Assembly (NCBI RefSeq): GCF_020382885.2
Contig: NC_058515.1
Location: forward strand, 9,407,223 to 9,471,222
DNA length: 64,000 nt
Source: Scatophagus argus
Lineage: Eukaryota > Chordata > Actinopteri > Scatophagidae
Reading direction: 5' to 3'
Within the stretch, counting starts at the first letter, position 1; every line of letters begins with the position of its first letter. The notes under the pieces are model-generated. The model saw only the letters and a program-made list of their open reading frames with translations, ran no database searches and was not told where the DNA came from. Below are positions 100 to 40,853 of this stretch, in pieces. Position numbers and translations under genes: made by a program.

Positions 100-3000
100 C
101 TAAAGTGAAGGGGAGGGATGGGCCAATTCAAAGGCATCGTTTTTTATCTTCTTCAGAGGTCTGGTTGAGGGTCGGAGGTCGTCAGGTCCATGGGCGAAGG
201 CACAGAGTTCGTCCTGCAGGGGGCAGCGCTGAGGGTGGTGGTCATGAAACCAGCAGGGACGAGTTTTCAGAGCACCGGGGGCAACGGGCTTCCTCTTGGT
301 ATCCGCCCGAGAGGACTTCCTGTCCCGCCAGTCTCTTATGCACACCCTCCCTCCTTCCACTGAAAGCAAGGGAACAACAGGAAGATGCAAGACCTCTTCA
401 GAATAAAATGCTTCTTACAAATGTTACGAGCAAATCTGTTTCTATCGACCAGGCCCTCCAGGAAACCAGCGTATCTTAAGTTAAATAGTACAAGTAAAGA
501 AAAACTTAACTGTCAGCAACAACTGGATGTTTTTTGATGTTTAGCAGTTTAAAAACGCAGCGAAGGTGCTGTGGAAACACTCTGAATGTGCTGCAGCACT
601 GATCTGGTGCTGTTTTTTTCTACAAGGTAATAGCAGTTTATGCTCATGGAGCATTCGCCATATGAAACTGATGGAAAATCACAGCTTCCCAGTGACCAAA
701 AACGTTCATTCGTCAGTGAAAACTTATTTTAAACCACATAAGGGAAAATGTATTTTTCTGTTTTTGCTGTTTCTGTTTAGCTATGAAGCCATTTTGAAAT
801 GTGTAGTCCAACTACCTCTGAAGACTTGGTGGTTGTTCTTGAGCAGAGTCTGAAGACCTCCACACTCCTTCTTCAAGAGCCGCAGGGTTTCCTGCTCCAA
901 CAACCCAGCGACCTCGCTCACAGAGAGGCTGCCTGAAGAGGAGGGAGGCGGGGAAGAAAAGGATGAAAGACGAGAGCGAAGAACAGAGTGACAAAGGAGC
1001 AGGAGGAGGTCTATCGATGTTACATTCATCAATATATTAACATGCCGCTTCGGGCATGCACGGAAATAATTTTTATCCACCATTCAGGAGGGAGACAGAA
1101 GCATCCGATACAGCTTGACTGTCTCAAGTCGATGTCTGCAGTCTGACATTGTCTCAGCGAAAATGATGGGGTGATAAATGTTATATACAGAACATTTTAG
1201 AGAGGGGAAAAAAACACCTCGGCCTCTGTCTTTCCAAGTTAGTCAGGGCTGTGAAGTGTGCTCAATTAAAGCTGCTCCAGCAAGCTGTCAGAGCAACCAG
1301 CGTGTATTTCACCGCTGCATCTCCCACCGGCCGCTTGAGAGCGTGAGTCATTGTCGTCACTCCCCCACTGGGACAGTAATTTTAGATACCAAAGTGCAAA
1401 AAAAGGAGACAGAGTGATACTGAAATACACAAAGTCCTATGCAGGGAGTAGAGCGGATAGTAAGCAGATACATGGCACACCCCTTTGTGTTCACAGCCAC
1501 CCCTCATGAGCTGTTTCATGAGATTTTAAGCATTTCGGGCTTTGCCCCCCACCCCGAAGAGAATTCAATCAGAGCTGACATTTGGTTTGTACAAATGACA
1601 ATCCTCCTCCTCCTGCTCCTCCTCATATTGGGAAGGACCACACCACATTTCAAATGCAAATTGGGTGCTTTTTTCATAACCAATATTTGACCTGCGGACT
1701 TCTCAATGTGATCTTCATCATACTTTTAACCCAAATCTCTGGTGGCACTTCAGACAATCCCCTGTCGGCTTAAAGATGGCTGCCTGCAAGAATTTCACTG
1801 TGAAATATATTGCATTTGTTTCCAAAAACAGCTCAGTTGGTCAAAGAAATAATATATGAGTTTTACTTATAATTTTACAGTAAATCTGCAACTGGATTTA
1901 TGCTGGTTTTCAACTTCTAAAACTTTTCTGCCTCTAAAATTCATGAGAAAACATATTGTCCACTCTGATACATCCTAAATTTAGCTGGTCAAATTGCTGA
2001 ATTAATCCCTAAAATATGCAACACACGCCCACATTCACAGACACTCGCACAGGCCAAATGCAGTTCTGTGTGCTGGAGTGTGAAACCGGGCAGACTGCCG
2101 TCCGACAGCCCAGACGTCGGGGAGCTCCAGGCCTTAATATAATATCAATACACCGCTTAGAGCTGCCCTTTACTGCCTACAATGTTAATGGGAATTAATG
2201 GGAGAAGGTCAGTATTGACGGAGCAGGCTTGGACTAAGACCAATGTAGACAATTATTAATGGCTTGGCTTGGTGTACAGTTGGATTTTTTTTTGTTAAAG
2301 CTTAGGGTTTGATTGCTGACTGTGAATGATTGTTTTTGCTTCTTAGGTCAATTCAGAATCAGGCTGAGTGGAGAAATTTAGATGTAAAATTGCTAAGTGC
2401 TGATCACAACATTTGAAAGGTTAATTTTTTTTTTAGCTACCAAGAGCTCAGGCTTTAAAAAAATCTGGAAATACTCACAAATAATTAACTTTATTTACCA
2501 AACCTGTGAGTCAGTACTATCCCAAGGGGGTCGCAAGATGATTAACAAGTTGGGAAAGAAAAGGAAAAATCAGATTTCTGCATCGATGATGTCGTTTCTC
2601 TTAAAGTTAAATACTGGAGAGTTTTACCTCTTCAGGAAACTTATCTTACAGGTGCTATTTTCATTATAGAATACTGTGCCAATTACTAGATCCACTAGAT
2701 CTAGATCCATCTAATAATCTTTAAAATGCAAGGAAATGCCAACGGCAGTTTCCCAAAGCCCAAGTTGTTATATCTATAACATAGCTGTTCAGCTGAAAAT
2801 TAATGAAGACTAAAGCCAGCAGCAAAGAGTCAAGTTAAAGAAGCTGAAACAAAAGAATTAGCCAATTAACTCTTTAGCCAATTAACTTTGTGTTGATCAG
2901 CTAATCAATAAATGGACTAATCGTCGTAGCTCGACTATTATGAGCAAGGTTAACAATATCTACAAAGTGCAGGTGAGTGCAGCTCAGATCAGTGAAGCCT

Positions 3001-6000
3001 GCTGGTGTGGAGGATGATGAAGATGATTCTGCGAAGCACAAATTACTGCTGGGTCTTCTGGAGGATTCTGGGACCAAACTGGCAAGACGCGTGATAGGAG
3101 GTAATAACATCATGTACCCACGCTCAGACGCTACCTCTTCCATGCAAGCCGTTTCTGTTCAGCACGCAGGAACAACACAAAAGAACGTGACAGGAAGGAT
3201 GTGAAAACTTTCTGACTTGCTGTATCAGATTTGAATGATTTAAGGTTTAGGATTGCATGTTTGATGTAAAGCTGCAAACAGATTTCTGTCCTCAGCAGGA
3301 TTACATAACTACACGAGCCCAGTCAGCAGTACAGCAGGCATGAATTAGTAACTTGACACAAAGGCAAAGTGGCCAACTTAGATGTTCTCATGTTTCACTT
3401 GCTAACTATTCAAAAGAGCCAATGAGGTACAGGATTTTAACCACTGCCATTTTTGCACATAGGTTTGATTTTTATATTCCTCTAGAGGGTTATTTATTTT
3501 TATACTGCTATATCTTTATCTTTTTCTCTTTTTTGTTTGATTAAATTGCAAGGCATTATTACTAAGGTCTAAATAAAAGTCTGGCTGACATTTTGATCCA
3601 AATTTTGATACTTGATTCAAGTTAGTTTTAATATGTAGACCTCAAGAGCCGTATTTTACACACACATCGAGATCACTGCTGTTTGTGTTTTGTTAGAGCC
3701 TGAGTTTGTCACTTCCACGGGCAGAGAGGCACATATATCCAACGCCAAATATTTGTTGGGGCAAACCTACATAATGGTGACAGCAGAAAGCTGTTTCTTT
3801 ACAAGCTAAATGTGTGTTTTTGCAATCTGTTTGCACTGCAATGTGCAATGAAAAAAGAAACAAGGAGCTGAGGACCAGCTGGTGACTATAAGTTCAACAA
3901 AACTTTCACTTACATTAAAGCCCAGAGGTGATAACCAAAACTCTACGTAAGTATCACTTTAAATATCAAAAGCTAATTTATAAAAATATCAATAATCCTC
4001 TTTGAAGATGTATTAAAAATGGAGAGAAACTGAATCGCAAAGCCCTTTCAATAACTTCAAGGCCCTCCTGCACCTATTCAATATGGACTGGCTCACCCTG
4101 AATTTACCCTTTGTTCTTACACAGCAGATAACTGGTAGGAATACCTCAATACAAATGCATACTCATGCATAAATCATAGATGGTGGTGCATTATTAATCC
4201 AGTCATCTCTGTACAGAGTCACAGACTCCCTTCATTCGCTCTCCCTCAGATTCTCTACCTTTAATTTCAGCAGTGACATCCTGACAGAGAATTTTCTGTT
4301 TTAATCATAGTAGTCCTCATATCCTTATCTCATTCATACTGTGTGTGCCTGTGTGGCAGCGGGGTTGCAGAGGCACTGACAAAGGTGATGCGTGGGCGGT
4401 GTGTGAGTGTGTGTAATGGCGTGTGCGTATCTTGCACCCTCCGCACCATGCGGCGTAGGGAGAGGCTGGCGGAGGGTGAGATACAGAGTTCAAAGTGGCT
4501 TCGATCTGTGTCACGAAGGCCCTGTCGACTGATGCTGTGAGGGGGACAGGGCGTTGACAAGAGGTGGAGGGTTAGACGGGATGATGGAGAGGGGATCAGA
4601 CGAGAGGTTCAGAAGCAGTGGAAGCTGCCAACGTGCCACGAAGCACCTAGAAATATTTTTCAAAAAGGTACCGACGAAAAGTGTGAGAAGTGATTCATCT
4701 GTGTTGTTTTGGAGGTATTCAGTTTATAACTATGGCTGCTCTACACAGAAAAGCACTGTAACGTTATGTTTAGATCAAATGGAGTTTACAAAAAAGTGTA
4801 AAAACACCAAAAGGAGCCAAGCGTGTACCTGATTCCAGTCTCTTTGCTAAGCTAAGCTAACTGGCTGTAGCTTCTTATTTAACAAAGAGATATAAAGAAT
4901 TATTATGCCACACTTAACTATGGGCTGTAAACCATAATTATAATTACAAAAAAATTCTTTACCAAAGTACAGGTTTCCCCTTACATGACTTGAATATAGT
5001 ATCTGCATTTTTTAAACTATTTTGTTGGTTCTCTGGCAGTCATTTTTAGGGGTGAAGGTTCAAAAATGCAGCTTAAAAATACAGCCATTACCATCTTTGT
5101 ATCAGTTACTCAGTCTGTCTGAAACTGTAGATACTGATCTCTTCCTTTGTATGGGCAGCACAGCTAACAGACAATAATGAAACCGCCCAATGTGCTCCAT
5201 AATAAGCCTGGATCAGTGAGCGTCATACATATTGTCTCCTTCTCTGGTCTTGATCTGAATCTGTTCATCACATGAGTAGCAGCTCGTGTCCAGGAAGACT
5301 TGTGTGACGTGTTTGTTTATCTCTGATGTTTTTGTGGCTGCTGGTGTTTTACCTCCTCGGTTCCAGTCACTGGACGACCCCCCGCCGTCATCCTCAGTCA
5401 TTCCCAGAAGAACATTAGCAACCCGTAGGACAACGCCGTCAACAAAGTCCCTCGGGAGAGCAGCGCAGTTTCGAACCAACTCAACCCTGTCTCTGGGCTG
5501 GAACCCTTCTCCCCAGCTGCTCCCGGGGGTCCTGTCAGTGTCTTTGTTCCCATGGCAACAGCGCCTGTCATTTCTCATGTCTGACCCGTGAACTGTGACC
5601 CTGGAGGCAATCTGGCGGCTCTCGATGTAATGAGCTCTTCGTCGCTCGGCCTCGGCCTCATCGGGCAGCTGATAGTTTCTCGACTTTCCCACCAGACACA
5701 CCTGCAGAGAGAGGAGCTGAATGTCAGGACGACTCCCACAGGCACCGAGGCTCAAAGACTGTAAAACCAGAAACTCACGAGTAGAAAATGACAACACAAA
5801 TCCTCAACATGAGTGTTACTATGGACAAAGCATACTAAAGCTGCCAGCTGTGAAAGCAATGTCTCTTTGGGGACAATAAAGACTTCTGTCCGTCTATACT
5901 AGATGAGGTTCAGGCGGAGACAAAGGCAGGGATGCGCAGCTGTACCTATTTGAGGAACAAGAACCTTTTGCTTATTTTGCATAGAAATCCAATGACTCCA

Positions 6001-9000
6001 ATGCATATTCCCATAAGAAAAAAAAACTTGTTCATGACATCTCTGCTTTATGAGAAAGTCACAGCGAAGAAAGACTGGAAAAATCCAAGTAAAAAAAAAA
6101 AAACATAAAACGAAAGTCAGAGTCACACCTACGACTTCATCAGTATCACGTATATGTGCATTAGCTATTCAGGAAACCAGCAGGCTGCCTTTTTTTTAAA
6201 CCACCCACTGATTCTATCACTATGTAGTCTTTGTACACAGTGCCAGTACTGTGAAAAGCTACAAGAGCGTGAACATGTATTATATATATTAATAGCTTAG
6301 ACTCATCTTTTCTGTTATTGTGATCATTTTCAGAAAGAAAGCCTCTCGTAAAAATAATCCCGGTACAATGTTGAGCAGATTATACGGACCGAAACTTTAA
6401 CTATGTGGTGTTTTCTACCTTCACATCAGACGGACAGTCAAACAATGTCATTAAGTGCTTGTAAAACCGAAGTCCTAATCTTTATGTGCCAATAATCCAT
6501 TTGTTTTATTAACGAGGTAGTCCAACAATTTTACACATAAAGTTATCTCAGTTTCAGCTTCAAATTTCTAACGAAAAAAAAAAATCAGTGTTACTAAGTG
6601 GGGTTATAGAGTTTTACAGTTAGGTCTAATGACAGTGTCCAGTTGCATTATGGGAGGCGCAGGATACAGGGTTTTTTGTGGCGTGACAGATGCGAGGAAC
6701 TAAAGGTTAAGATATTCTGGGCTTTGCTGCTTCAATTTTGACCAATCTTTTTAATTCTGTTGCTCACAAGCCCATCAGCTTTACATAAGTGCTGAAAATC
6801 TTCTTCTGTTTTTGTCATTCAGTTGTTAGACAGCTGGCAGCAGAGATGGACAGGAAACATGAGGGGAAGAGTGAAATGAGACGGCATGCAACAAAGCTCT
6901 GGAGGGCTGGATTTAAGGAATTTTTGTGAACACTTAGCACTTTGAAATTTCAAAAGACATTTTAAGAGACGTCAACCACACAGTATGACGAATGTTTACA
7001 GATCAGACAGGTGACACGTGAGCCAAGCAGGACAGTTCTGACTTCTGTGGACTTTGTCAGCCTACCCGTTTAGTGGATGGTATTCTCAGGCAGTCCTCTT
7101 CAGCGTTGAAGCCACTGACTTGGCTAACCTCACTGATGAAGTCAATGTATTCCTTATACTGAGACTTCTTACACTGGCGTCTCTGGTATTTTCCATAGAA
7201 GTCAAAGAAACAGCAGGGCAGGACGAAGTACCGACAGGAGTAAGAAGACCTGCAGAGCAAAAGACAAATTCTTATCAAGTGCAAAAGAAAATAAAGACTG
7301 TATATCTTCAGAGTAAAATGTCTTCAGTTTGTGTGCTACTTGTGTTCCTTTAAGTAAAAGTTTAGTAGACAGGAAACAGCAATGCACAGACTCAGACTGA
7401 GGCCTAACATCGCCATCACGTGGTCGCCTTCAAAAGTGCACACTAGTGAACTTACACACAGCACAGGAACACACACACACACATTTTCACACATTCACAT
7501 GCCTATAATGTTATTCCCAACTGAAGAGATCAGCTGGCACTTGAGCTGCTGAGTGAGATTGTGTCTGCTGATGACTCGCCTGGCTGCTATAACAGGGATC
7601 CACGGTGTGAGCTCGTCTGAGTGGTTCCCAATCAGCCAGTCCGTACCCGAAAATAAGAAGCTCTCGCTGGGAGTAATTGCCTTTTCCTGAAATAGCAAAG
7701 ACCCAAAAAGCACAAGAGCTGCTTTAGAGAAGGGAAGATGCACACAGGCGTGATTTGATTCTCACATCAATTTGAATCAATTTATGGAAATTGTATGAAA
7801 AGGAAAACTTTATAGAATCTTTCACACAACACCTGTCAGGAGGTTTATCTGAAACACATTTTTCTGAGTAAAATGATGAATAACACCAAAATTCAGCCAA
7901 GAGTTTCTCTGAAACGTTTCACATTCAGCTCATTTCAACAGGCATCACACATGATGTGAGTTAAGAGCACTGAAGCTTCCAAAAGAAGGTTCAGGAGCGG
8001 GCACAGCACCCCTGGGGGGCCGTAGAAAGATTGCTCTGCCACATCCGCTCTGCAAAATCAGTCAATAATAGATGACCTGAAATGGAAGCATTAAGCAGCT
8101 TGTTGTCAAATGAATGACTGAGGCCAGGGGCCACACGGGGAAAGTGCAGTGTTGTGAGGGCCGGTTTCCCTGCAGATGTTTGCATGTTTTCATTAACATG
8201 TTTATTCAGCGTTACCCCCCTGTGCACTAGTAGAGTTGTTTTTGTACCTTCTAGCAGTCATTACAACATGTATGTCTTAAGTATACTACTGCCTGTTCCA
8301 TGTTCGGTATCCGTCTCATACCAACAGCAGAATCGATAGCTCAACTGGCCTGAAAGTGAAGCATTAAAGCACCAATGAGGGGGACTACGACAGCTGAAAA
8401 CCTACAGCACGTGATACGGCTCCCACGTGAAAAGATAATAGCGCTAATTAAAAACCTGAATACGGCTACAATCAATCCTCCTCCTCCACGCTCGGCTCAC
8501 TCACCTCTAGCAGAGTCTGGGGGCCGTACATGTCCCAGATCTTCCTCTTCCGGACATCAATGCCCTTTCCAGGATGCTGCAACACAAGACGGCATGACGG
8601 TCAGTGGCTAATCGCTCTCAGTCACATTCAGATCCTGACGTTCAACCTCTGTGTGTAATTTCAATTACACCTGTCCTAGTTTGTGATTGGCCACTAAGTT
8701 GACACAGTACTGTGGGCTTAATATATTCAGGGACATGAATGCCCTGAATCCACCTGGTGTTGATGAGCCCCATGTCATTGATTGAACTGCCAGGAAAGGC
8801 TGAAACTGAAAGACCTGTGCTTTGACTGGTCACTGTTTGACAAGAGATGGTTTATCTGGATTTTATAGGGCAAATTTGCTGTAAATCTCTTATTCCTTCT
8901 TAATCAAATAGAACATTATGATGAATGTATTGTTTAAAGTGAGAGTTATTTTTAAACCCAGTTTTTGATTCAGTCAGATAATTTATTCCAGTTTTGTTCA

Positions 9001-10984
9001 ATTCAGTTCAAAGATGTGGCAGTTAAATTCTTCATCATGTAGTTTCTATTGTTTTTTTATTTGTGTTGTAGCTAAGTGACTGCACACCCTTTAAAACACA
9101 CATAATTCAAAAAAAATAAAAGACAGTTTGGTCATTCATAACTGACTGTCCACAGATCAGTGTTAGATTAATTTCGAGTTGTTGCAGGTTAGAAGTGCTG
9201 CATTCAGTTCAGTACAAAACCTGGCACGCATGCCCTCTGTTTTTACGGTTATGAGGACAGAAACCACCAGTGTACATCAGAGTAATCACATCATGGTTGT
9301 TTTCAGAGGCCTCTATGGACTTTCGGTAAGCTTTCAGCCAGAGAGTAACATCAAAAATGACCGAACTTAAAGATTCTGAAACTAATCATCTCTAGAGGAA
9401 GGACACCAATGTCCATGCTGCACCTAACTTACCCCTTCATTGGTCAGTATGTGAACCAGTAGGCCGTTTCCACAGCCCAGGTCCACAAAGGATTGGCTGG
9501 AAGTCAGACTCTTCTCTGCTCGCTCCTCAGCCCACAGCACCTGTACAACAGTGACAGAGAATCAAACCTACCGTATGTCCATGAGAGCTTTAAATCATAT
9601 TAGTAAAGCCCAATGCACATCTGCAACGTGACACCTGCAGCTGACACCTGCCTCTGGCATGGCGTACGAATTGATTAACTGGGTCAAAGCCGTGATTCAC
9701 ATGGCAATTGATTGACCCAGTTTTGGCCGCATGACCTGACATGTGACAGATACATATGAGTTTCACTTACACGTACATATCAATCTTCGGGAACCAACCA
9801 ATTGTTAATTTTGGTGAAAAAACAACCTCAACAACCAGTTTTGAACTCACAAGGAGATAGGTAGCAATGGCGACATCTTCATAGACAAACTTCTCAGGAT
9901 CTGTGACTTCGGGCCAAACCTAGAGGACAGGAAAAAAAGAAGTGCTCAGTAACAAAGACGAATACCCAACCTGAATATGAACAGCATCAAAGCAGAGATA
10001 TTGATATGGTATCAGTATAATACTTTCTTCAGTTGAACTGAGTGGGTAGACAAAGGAGGAGCAATGTCAGCAGCCTGGAACAATGAAGACAAAAGAAAGA
10101 CTTTACCTTGACCATGGCCTTGTACTTCTCCTTCAGCTGCTGGTACATGAGGCTGTACTTCTCCACCGGCAGCAGAGATAAGGTGTTCTTGAACTCGCTG
10201 TTTTTGCACTCGGTGGCCCAGCGCACCAGTTTAGGCAGCAGATCAGTGGACAGCCAGGGCAGCTTTGGATACGCCACGCCATCAGAGAACCAAGCATCTG
10301 GAGTTAAAGCATGCAGCTCCAAGGCCCTGCAGATTAAGGCAGACTTATCTAGATCTTGATTTATGCATACTATTTTAAAACCAGAAAGAAGCAGTGCTTT
10401 CTGTAATGATGGCCCATTTCCATTCAGATTTAGACAGTAGGATTGCTGAGTCTTTGCTACTCACCATTCCTCACAGTCCTGATGGAGAAGCCGAATCTGA
10501 TAAATGTTGCCTCTCTTTAGGCACACCTGCCCTTCTGAATCTTCTTCAAATGGAAGAAAGGTCACTTGTTGTCTGTCAAAATCTTGAACAAACAAAGACA
10601 GTCTTAAAATGCTATAAATACAGAAGGGAATTTGGAACAGCCGTCAAGTCCAGTCTTACCTTTGAGTATAATCTCTTTATGGAGCTTTGTACCATGACAG
10701 TTTACTTTTGGGATAATTGTTCTCACACTAAAAGACCAGGGCTGGTGCGTCTGTTCAGAAACCCCGCTGGAGAGGAAGGACAAAACCTCATGAGAGACTT
10801 CAGGATCGTCGAGCAGGAACTGCAGAGCCTCTCTGCCCACATTTTCACTTTCTGTCTCCTTGACTCCGCAAAGACGCTTGTTCACAACATGAGGTTTCTT
10901 TACCCACACGTCTACGGCTGACCAAAAGCCTTCGGGAAGAGTCTTACATCCTCCTGGAAACTTTAAATTCAGGAGTTTGGGCAT
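100..10984 (-). CDS. trmt44: TRMT44, tRNA(Ser) uridine-44 2'-O-methyltransferase
   Basis: Eleven exons, 5' to 3' on the minus strand: 10660-10984, 10465-10534, 10107-10326, 9851-9919, 9433-9540, 8505-8576, 7580-7686, 7066-7249, 5353-5701, 816-932 and 100-359. They join in phase to give 626 residues; the human protein is longer (about 757). The family methylates the 2'-OH of U44 in tRNA-Ser using S-adenosylmethionine. Seen here: Rossmann SAM motif DLGCGNG (about 248-254), catalytic-region NHSDELTPW (309-317), PCCFFDF (335-341), and a C-terminal CCCH zinc finger with C576, C586, C593 and H597. The ATG at 10984 is preceded by an in-frame stop. The intron after 7580 starts with GC rather than GT. 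The intron between 5353 and 932 is about 4.4 kb and holds no other exon I can support. The 3' UTR runs off the left edge or overlaps the convergent gene. Identification is firm; exon 2 borders are the least certain. Confidence 0.93.
4831..4912 (+). repeat. Fragment of a teleost interspersed repeat (GCTAAGCTAAGCTAAC family)
   Basis: Contains tctttgctaagctaagctaa followed by ctggctgtagcttcttattt, matching the core of a better preserved copy at 36890-37095. It lies in the long TRMT44 intron. The element type (SINE or MITE) is not decided by the sequence alone. Confidence 0.6.
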
Positions 10985-11060
10985 ACCGGTAATTTATTTT
11001 CACATACGACGCCGCGTTACAAAAGGAACTGACTTCCCGGAAATTTTATTTTGTAGATAA
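10985..11060 (-). promoter_or_regulatory. Putative TRMT44 promoter / 5' UTR
   Basis: Immediately upstream of the TRMT44 ATG. It contains a TTCCCGGAA palindrome (11034-11042), which fits both an ETS core (CCGGAA) and a STAT-type TTCnnnGAA site, plus a short CG-rich stretch around 11007-11016. No TATA box is seen at the expected distance. The start site is not determined. Confidence 0.4.
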
Positions 11061-39140: not shown

Positions 39141-39270
39141 TAATATAAACCCACCCTACATGCATGTCTACAAATACCGTCCACGCTGGTCATCAGCTCA
39201 GAAGACGCAGAGATTGCAGTCATAATCAGCTTTGAGGAGAGAAGTCCAAGGAGAAAACTGAAGATTAAAG
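39141..39270 (+). promoter_or_regulatory. TATA box and non-coding first exon of the osteocrin-like gene
   Basis: TATAAA at 39144-39149 predicts a start near 39175. The segment then ends with the donor attaaag|gtaaaact after 39270. A 78-base intron leads to the acceptor ctctgttcag| directly before the ATG at 39349. Without that splice the ATG at 39349 would still be the start of the only long frame. Confidence 0.5.
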
Positions 39271-39348
39271 GTAAAACTGGGATTTTTTTGGAAAATTCAT
39301 TTGCTTGCGTGTTATTGTTACTGACTCTGGCTATCTCGCTCTGTTCAG

Positions 39349-40407
39349 ATGCTTTGGTCCAGGTGTGTGCTACCTTCCCTGGCTCTTTACATGTTGCTGG
39401 AGCAAATATCTGCTGCTGTGTTGCCAAGCGGATTCAGGAACAAGCGGGTAGGCCTTTAGGGGCAAACTCTTCAAATCAAACACCTGGAAGCGTTTAATAG
39501 TTAGCAGTCTATTTTACAAACTGATTATCGTCCACAGGAAGTAAACTGGCTGGACCAAGAGCTCTTCCCCCTGCTTGATGCCTCAGACCAGAGAGACCTC
39601 TCTGTGGGCGATGCTGGGGAGACGGGCAGGGATGTGAACAGACGCCACTCTCACCCAGAGACCGTCCTCGCCCCAGCAGAGCCCCTTCCTGTCAAACGGC
39701 AGAATCAGAACCAGTTCCAGTACCGCCGTAACGAAAAGAGGTGAGGAAAACTTGTATCACGCATCTTGAATGGGTTTACGCCTGTGGTGACATTATGAAA
39801 GTAATGCATGAAGAAACTTTAGAAAATGTAACTTCTAATGAACAAATTGGGAGGACTGAAAATGTTACTAGCTCACAGTTTAAATAACTGTAATACATAA
39901 GTTTTTTTCCATTCAGTTACACATAACTAAGACTATTTCAGTCCCCGAACAGCACAGAAATGAGGGGTTTTGGACTGAGGATGTCTTTTGATGTGTCCTC
40001 AGGAGGAAGGTTGCTCCTCTGGACTCCATTGGCGGTTTTCAAATGTCCAGTTTTCGCCACCGACAGGTGAGTTCCAAGAGACGTACGTACCACATCAGAG
40101 GCTTTTACTGAGAGAAATTAACATCTGGACAAGTTGTCTGACACTGTATTCATTTTTACTGTGCATTTATTTTTTTATGCCTTTTATTTCCAAAACAAAT
40201 TAGCCTCCATCACAACTAACAATTGCATGCCACTTACTTGATTTCCAGGTATCAACCTGCTTGACTTGTCTGTATGGTGTCACTAATAAAGTATAACAAA
40301 GGATTAGTATTGACAATTTCTTAACACTTGAGAATGAAAAACTGAGTATTTGTATGTTTGTGTTACAGGATGAACCCGACTTCCACTGGGAAGAATACAA
40401 GAAATAA
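39349..40407 (+). CDS. Small secreted peptide precursor resembling osteocrin/musclin
   Basis: Four coding exons (39349-39447, 39538-39740, 40003-40066, 40369-40407) join in phase to a 134-residue protein; human osteocrin is 133. Seen: a signal peptide (MLWSRCVLPSLALYMLLEQI, probable cut after A23), a hydrophilic propeptide rich in dibasic sites (NKR 31-33, RR, KR, RR), then KRRK at 100-103 followed by VAPLDSIGGFQMSSFR (104-119), an RHR site, and an acidic tail ending WEEYKK. The only cysteine (C6) is in the signal peptide, so the mature peptide is linear. The segment aligns without gaps to the osteocrin C-terminal peptide at Pro, Asp, Ile, Gly, Ser and Arg, plus Leu/Met swaps. In osteocrin that segment resembles natriuretic peptides and binds the clearance receptor NPR-C. 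Location in the 17p13.1-like block, paralogous to human 3q where OSTN lies, supports an ohnolog. The coding gene is well supported; the osteocrin kinship is inference from my reading. Confidence 0.75.
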
Positions 40408-40582
40408 AGAGCAACACCAACAACTGTTTTCTTCATTGCCGATCCATATTTGAACATTTCATATTTATTCTATATTATTTGACTCATTACCATACTAACA
40501 AGTGAGATACCTGTGTTCGACTCCCTCTAGTGGTAAAAGACAAACATGACAAACTCTGTTATGTGCCAAAGTCCTAATTAAA
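40408..40582 (+). terminator. 3' UTR of the osteocrin-like gene with ATTAAA near 40577-40582
   Basis: Short 3' UTR ending in the common variant signal ATTAAA (ctaattaaat). The PHF23 transcript arrives from the opposite side about 100 bases further on. Confidence 0.5.

Positions 40583-40811: not shown

Positions 40812-40853
<42 letters not shown>

Follow-up and report, generated by a model that had tools for sequence, protein, structure and literature searches.

A candidate small-prohormone gene with osteocrin-like exon layout in a 17p13.1-like block of the Scatophagus argus genome

Introduction

Human OSTN, which encodes osteocrin (musclin), a peptide hormone of bone and muscle, lies near TP63 at 3q28, and the arginine of the peptide's D-R-I core has a role in receptor binding. 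OSTN has been described as having two motifs that are closely homologous to natriuretic peptides and as competing for binding to NPR-C (PMC11291853). The osteocrin gene of sunfish and tilapia is reported to adjoin gmnc and iws1 (PMC5016917), and a cichlid prohormone survey gives one OSTN and no duplicate (PMC4992253). Among the matches listed in our literature search, no title described a second osteocrin, and a text search for the letters of the candidate peptide described below found them in no paper. The string "ostn2" occurs in three papers; in two of them it proved to be OSTN followed by a reference number, and the third concerns rice.

We present here a candidate peptide gene of the fish Scatophagus argus, which a first-pass annotation had proposed as a second osteocrin. 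It is a real and apparently single-copy small-prohormone gene by our reading, and most likely (probability about 0.5) a highly diverged osteocrin paralogue in a 17p13.1-like block. The sequence shows the gene model and its exon layout; the similarity of the predicted protein to osteocrin is too weak for certainty.

Gene Model

The window analyzed is a 64,000-nucleotide stretch of contig C23 (C23:9407223-9471222) in a genome of 570.7 Mb and 48 contigs. The candidate occupies window positions 39349-40407 on the plus strand. Four coding exons, at 39349-39447, 39538-39740, 40003-40066, and 40369-40407, join in a GT/AG chain that reads through all of them, as first annotated, and give a secreted-precursor model of 134 residues (MLWSRCVLPSLALYMLLEQISAAVLPSGFRNKREVNWLDQELFPLLDASDQRDLSVGDAGETGRDVNRRHSHPETVLAPAEPLPVKRQNQNQFQYRRNEKRRKVAPLDSIGGFQMSSFRHRQDEPDFHWEEYKK) with coding intron phases of 0, 2, and 0. 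Exon 1, whose acceptor abuts the ATG, encodes the signal peptide and VLPSGFRNKR and ends in a phase-0 donor. Exon 2, backed by its coding score and by the exon-chain search, encodes a propeptide with dibasic sites and ends in a phase-2 donor after AAG-AG. Exon 3 (RRKVAPLDSIGGFQMSSFRHRQ), backed by a splice trial, alignment, and a position-specific scoring matrix (PSSM), carries a 16-residue osteocrin-like motif, VAPLDSIGGFQMSSFR, at 40010-40057, with the core PLDSIG at 40016-40033. Exon 4, which the coding sequence of ostn lacks, encodes DEPDFHWEEYKK followed by the stop codon. The splice trial, which took every GT/AG combination within about 10 to 30 bases of these boundaries, gave variants of 133 residues (an acceptor 3 bases on) and 137 residues (exon 3 read in a changed frame). 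A search of the fish's own genome with the candidate protein returned its four coding exons and only one further match, on contig C3 (E value, 9.6), so no 3R duplicate was detected and the gene is apparently single-copy.

Comparison with ostn

The bona fide ostn of the same genome was assembled on contig C5 and encodes 135 residues; its three coding exons measure 93, 227, and 88 nt. The Pfam Musclin profile (PF11037) matched the whole genome at one place only, C5:26131376-26131594, which is ostn, and not at the candidate; as controls, a provisional human OSTN sequence scored 243.5 bits and the fish's ostn 111.2 bits. The candidate protein gave no match to this profile up to an E value of 10 (cut-off, 21 bits) in a program, HMMER, whose filters drop most matches above an E value of about 0.1; this is one of the outcomes that the first-pass annotation had named as refuting its proposal. 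About 40 kb from ostn on C5 lies a TIR-domain exon, which would fit IL1RAP, the neighbor of OSTN on human 3q28. Searching the PDB with a provisional human osteocrin sequence gave no hits and therefore no solved osteocrin complex for comparison.

The layouts of the two genes, compared in this one pair, agree in having an acceptor at the ATG, a phase-0 and then a phase-2 intron, and the motif in the third coding exon. In both, the acceptor runs directly into the ATG (98th percentile for ostn and 95th for the candidate), and an equally good abutting acceptor accompanies 7 of the 1,171 ATGs on the plus strand of the window, the candidate's own being among the 7 by construction, and 0 of 1,202 on the minus strand. 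From its acceptor at the ATG, ostn too would have a 5′ noncoding exon. The first coding exons, of 93 nt (31 codons) in ostn and 99 nt (33 codons) in the candidate, both end in phase 0; the second exons, of 227 and 203 nt, respectively, both end in phase 2 with AAGAG/gt; and the third exons of both contain basic residues and P-[I/L]-D-x-I-G. The proline of this block is third-exon residue 15 in ostn and 6 in the candidate (split codon counted), the phase-2 intron of the candidate lying 9 residues nearer the block. On the reverse strand, 57 nt past the ostn stop codon, we also noted a candidate 3′ untranslated region (UTR) intron of 100 nt (donor, CAG/GTATGG), a possible equivalent of the candidate's intron between exons 3 and 4; its splice scores are ordinary (98th and 95th percentiles), and it was given no weight as layout evidence.

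Like osteocrin, the candidate is a small secreted precursor of nearly equal length (134 versus 135 residues) in which the last conserved block, P-x-D-x-I-G, follows basic residues. It differs from osteocrin in lacking a recognizable LTAKLL-LDDL-ND propeptide block, in its additional 12-residue terminal exon, and in a gene block unlike the gmnc/iws1 neighborhood of osteocrin in sunfish and tilapia. The fish ostn cores read PIDRIG and PLDRLS and the candidate core PLDSIG, without the D-R-I arginine. Where osteocrin has two natriuretic-like motifs, the candidate has one motif-like stretch; the stretch that aligns with the first ostn motif reads HSHPETVLAPAEPLPV. The missing F-G of the candidate is not telling, because fish ostn also lacks F-G before PIDRIG. 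Since the profile, the pair of motifs, and the core arginine were each looked for and not found, we do not file the candidate as a member of the osteocrin family.

Genomic Neighborhood

The block had been described as 17p13.1-like, and the domains in the window, together with p53-family and Dishevelled (DVL) genes nearby, bear this out. Six of 20 window open reading frames (ORFs) matched Pfam, with a tyrosine kinase, two scramblase exons, a PHD finger, ATG8, and, below the cut-off, a CCCH finger; placed on the map of the first-pass annotation, these matches fit TNK1, PLSCR3, PHF23, and GABARAP. A further ORF, presumably ELP5-like, had no Pfam match. Of the two genes nearby, that of the p53 family is at C23:9506758, 59 kb past the end of the candidate, and the Dishevelled gene at C23:9780579, 0.33 Mb from it. 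Literature searches on synteny and the paralogon yielded no usable background. Toward the start of the window, ORFs on the minus strand (103-10993) end in the CCCH zinc finger (zf-CCCH_UNK, 23.1 bits versus a cut-off of 31.1); they read like a TRMT44-type tRNA methyltransferase, which would not be a human 17p13.1 gene.

Genome-wide, DVL matches were found on contigs C23, C13, and C8; FXR matches on C6, C23, and C12; p53-family matches on C6, C8, and C23; and scramblase matches on C5 (at 1.08 Mb), C23, C18, and C13. Urotensin, tried as a further paralogon marker, matched on C8, C6, and C12, two of the three weakly (E values, 0.17 and 0.68), and this linkage neither helps nor excludes. At C5:26.1 Mb, ostn is unlinked to the DVL, FXR, p53-family, and urotensin genes found in this genome, and the sole scramblase found on C5 is about 25 Mb away. 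The separation of ostn from the sister genes might be due to rearrangement in fish and gene loss after 3R; it lends the paralogon no positive support. The C5 scramblase match itself (C5:1075281-1075928) covers profile positions 8 to 221 of 221 at 277 bits in one intronless open frame and is possibly a retrocopy.

Sequence Similarity and Alternative Families

The resemblance first remarked on was that of the core, PLDSIG, to the osteocrin core PMDRIG. The alignment is indeed gap-free with 4 of 6 residues identical, but 73.5% of 200 shuffles contain at least one 6-mer that is identical to osteocrin at 4 or more positions; the core 6-mer alone therefore means nothing, and the idea that its identity is significant by itself was rejected.

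Longer comparisons place what signal there is in the third exon. Aligned collinearly, exon 3 of the candidate and exon 3 of ostn gave P values of 0.002 (global, free ends) and 0.005 (local) in 3,000 shuffles and 0.003 in a separate run of 1,000. By shuffling, no significant similarity was found between the first exons (P = 0.12 and 0.15), between the second exons (P = 0.96 and 0.50), or between the candidate's mature region (P = 0.29 and 0.14) or full length (P = 0.14) and fish ostn. An osteocrin hidden Markov model built from three sequences, two of them provisional, scored the candidate at 4.0 bits, a value reached by 0.9% of 3,000 shuffles. When a panel of 31 provisional precursor sequences was compared with the mature region (400 shuffles), mouse and human OSTN ranked first and second, osteocrin having the top score as well as the lowest P values (uncorrected, 0.0225 and 0.0275). 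With the tail alone, ghrelin (P = 0.0125) and kisspeptin (P = 0.0175) came ahead of OSTN (P = 0.02 and 0.0325). All of these P values flatter osteocrin, because the first-pass annotation had preselected that family from many.

A 16-residue PSSM of the second osteocrin motif placed the candidate motif 2nd among 183,568 six-frame 16-mers. Only ostn itself stood above it, ostn's own first motif came below it, and its score was reached by 0.16% of 5,000 whole-protein shuffles. In a mixed PSSM the candidate motif was 5th; it was not in the top 12 with a first-motif PSSM or in the top 20 with a 10-residue second-motif PSSM. In the reverse direction, with the candidate motif as the query, the second motif of ostn was only 12th of 183,325, and with a 10-residue query it was not in the top 12. 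The osteocrin signal of the third exon appears real from these tests, but it is weak and not conclusive.

The proposal that the candidate is the OSTN sister copy is partly supported: it keeps the layout, the third exon, and the 17p13.1-like block in its favor and has the Musclin profile, exons 1 and 2, and the linkage of ostn against it. In its full form, the reading would be that a second osteocrin of 2R origin was kept in ray-finned fish beside tp53, lost the clearance-receptor arginine, gained a C-terminal exon, and acts as a linear hormone whose receptor is changed or new; for all of this together, we would give slightly less than even odds. If it is true, the osteocrin family of vertebrates would comprise two hormones, of which mammals have lost one, and comparing them could reveal how a ligand parts from its clearance receptor.

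A serious competitor, which we consider quite possible though distinctly below an even bet, is a real secreted peptide gene of another family whose motif and intron phases match osteocrin by chance. This would account for exons 1 and 2 that are unlike those of ostn, for motif tests that are not reciprocal, for ghrelin and kisspeptin tails that do as well as osteocrin or better, and for a protein without a relative in Pfam, the PDB, or viral contigs. Chance would also have to supply the abutment of acceptor and ATG, two intron phases, and exon sizes that coincide with those of ostn, all in a block where a p53-family gene is also found. Among such families, the ghrelin/motilin-associated peptide has a WEE-K tail in common with the candidate and, when the alignment is gapped, AP-[F/L]-[D/E]; aligned by the tail, ghrelin equals osteocrin in score (33). 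Ghrelin and motilin precursors feature GSSFLS-type and motilin-type N-terminal peptides; the candidate has neither after its signal sequence and matches no Pfam family.

Derivation from a natriuretic peptide of the CNP type by loss of the cysteines, rather than from osteocrin, is very improbable. The P-x-D-x-I-G block resembles the natriuretic ring too, the natriuretic peptides (ANP, BNP, and CNP; PF00212) having D-x-I-G in the core, and contig C23 also carries a natriuretic-peptide locus (C23:15.84 Mb), 6.4 Mb off. The candidate, however, has no cysteine ring and no match to PF00212, its mature region is no more similar to provisional natriuretic precursor sequences than shuffles are (P = 0.62 for NPPA, 0.71 for NPPB, and 0.995 for NPPC), and it is absent from the six ANP-family matches in the genome.

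Precursor and Proposed Processing

Several features of the precursor were confirmed: a signal peptide, judged by eye; dibasic sites, read directly as RNKR33, NRR68, VKR87, YRR95, and EKRRK103; and no cysteine after the signal peptide, the sole cysteine being Cys6. We infer common descent with osteocrin, processing, and receptor. The signal peptide would be removed first, and furin or a convertase would then cut at the dibasic sites. The main cut, after NEKRRK, would release a linear peptide of about 29 to 31 residues, VAPLDSIGGFQMSSFRHRQDEPDFHWEEY(KK). This peptide would keep the osteocrin-type P-L-D-x-I-G turn, without the arginine and the second motif and with an acidic-aromatic tail added; because of these changes, its interaction with a receptor is probably of another kind or weaker, and it is probably not a strong NPR-C decoy. 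With serine in place of the DRIG arginine, binding to NPR-C is doubtful, weak or no binding being expected, and a role as a strong NPR-C ligand is unlikely.

Coding Evidence and Gene Ends

A home-made exon-chain search (codon scores trained without the candidate or ostn; intron limit, 500 nt) found the same four exons, starting from a later in-frame ATG, with a score of 60.8. Most of 26 other strand-stretches of 2.6 kb in the window gave no chain. The highest comparison scores, 41.7 and 40.2, belong to stretches overlapping the candidate and the ELP5-like gene near 47 kb, respectively, and the best chain in stretches that overlap neither scored 20.1; some of the noncoding DNA in this comparison had also set the background. 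The finder is a crude one. For ostn (score, 56.4) it found exon 2 and missed the true exons 1 and 3, a wrong chain that arose because the first ostn intron exceeds the 500-nt limit.

The coding score of candidate exon 2, 0.38 bits per codon, is close to that of ostn exon 2 (0.36) and was exceeded by none of 1,086 overlapping noncoding pieces of equal length and without stops, which come from the noncoding DNA that also set the background. The +1 frame of exon 2 also scores 0.27, and exons 1, 3, and 4 score 0.10 (weak), 0.08 (weak), and 0.27 bits per codon. Scored with provisional consensus tables, the splice sites range from the 88th to the 99.95th percentile and are good except for the exon 2 acceptor (88th).

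A chance chain of exons in noncoding intergenic DNA, a view that the weak scores of exons 1 and 3 and the score of the +1 frame of exon 2 would favor, is hardly credible against the gap between 60.8 and at most 20.1 in the exon-chain scores, the rank of exon 2 above all 1,086 noncoding pieces, and splice sites that are mostly good. By these scores the candidate is almost certainly a real gene.

The original count of four exons stands for the coding part; in total the gene probably has five, the first noncoding. This first exon is probable because a TATAAA lies upstream and the acceptor at the ATG is paired with a donor at 39271. The TATAAA, a candidate core promoter read from the letters at 39144-39149, precedes a probable noncoding exon at 39175-39270, whose start is set by the TATA spacing and whose donor GT at 39271 is in the 98th percentile. 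At the other end, AATAAA at 40403-40408, likewise read directly on the plus strand, is a candidate polyadenylation signal that overlaps the stop codon, so the 3′ UTR may be very short. An (AG)n microsatellite is present at 40818-40851, about 400 bases 3′ of the gene.
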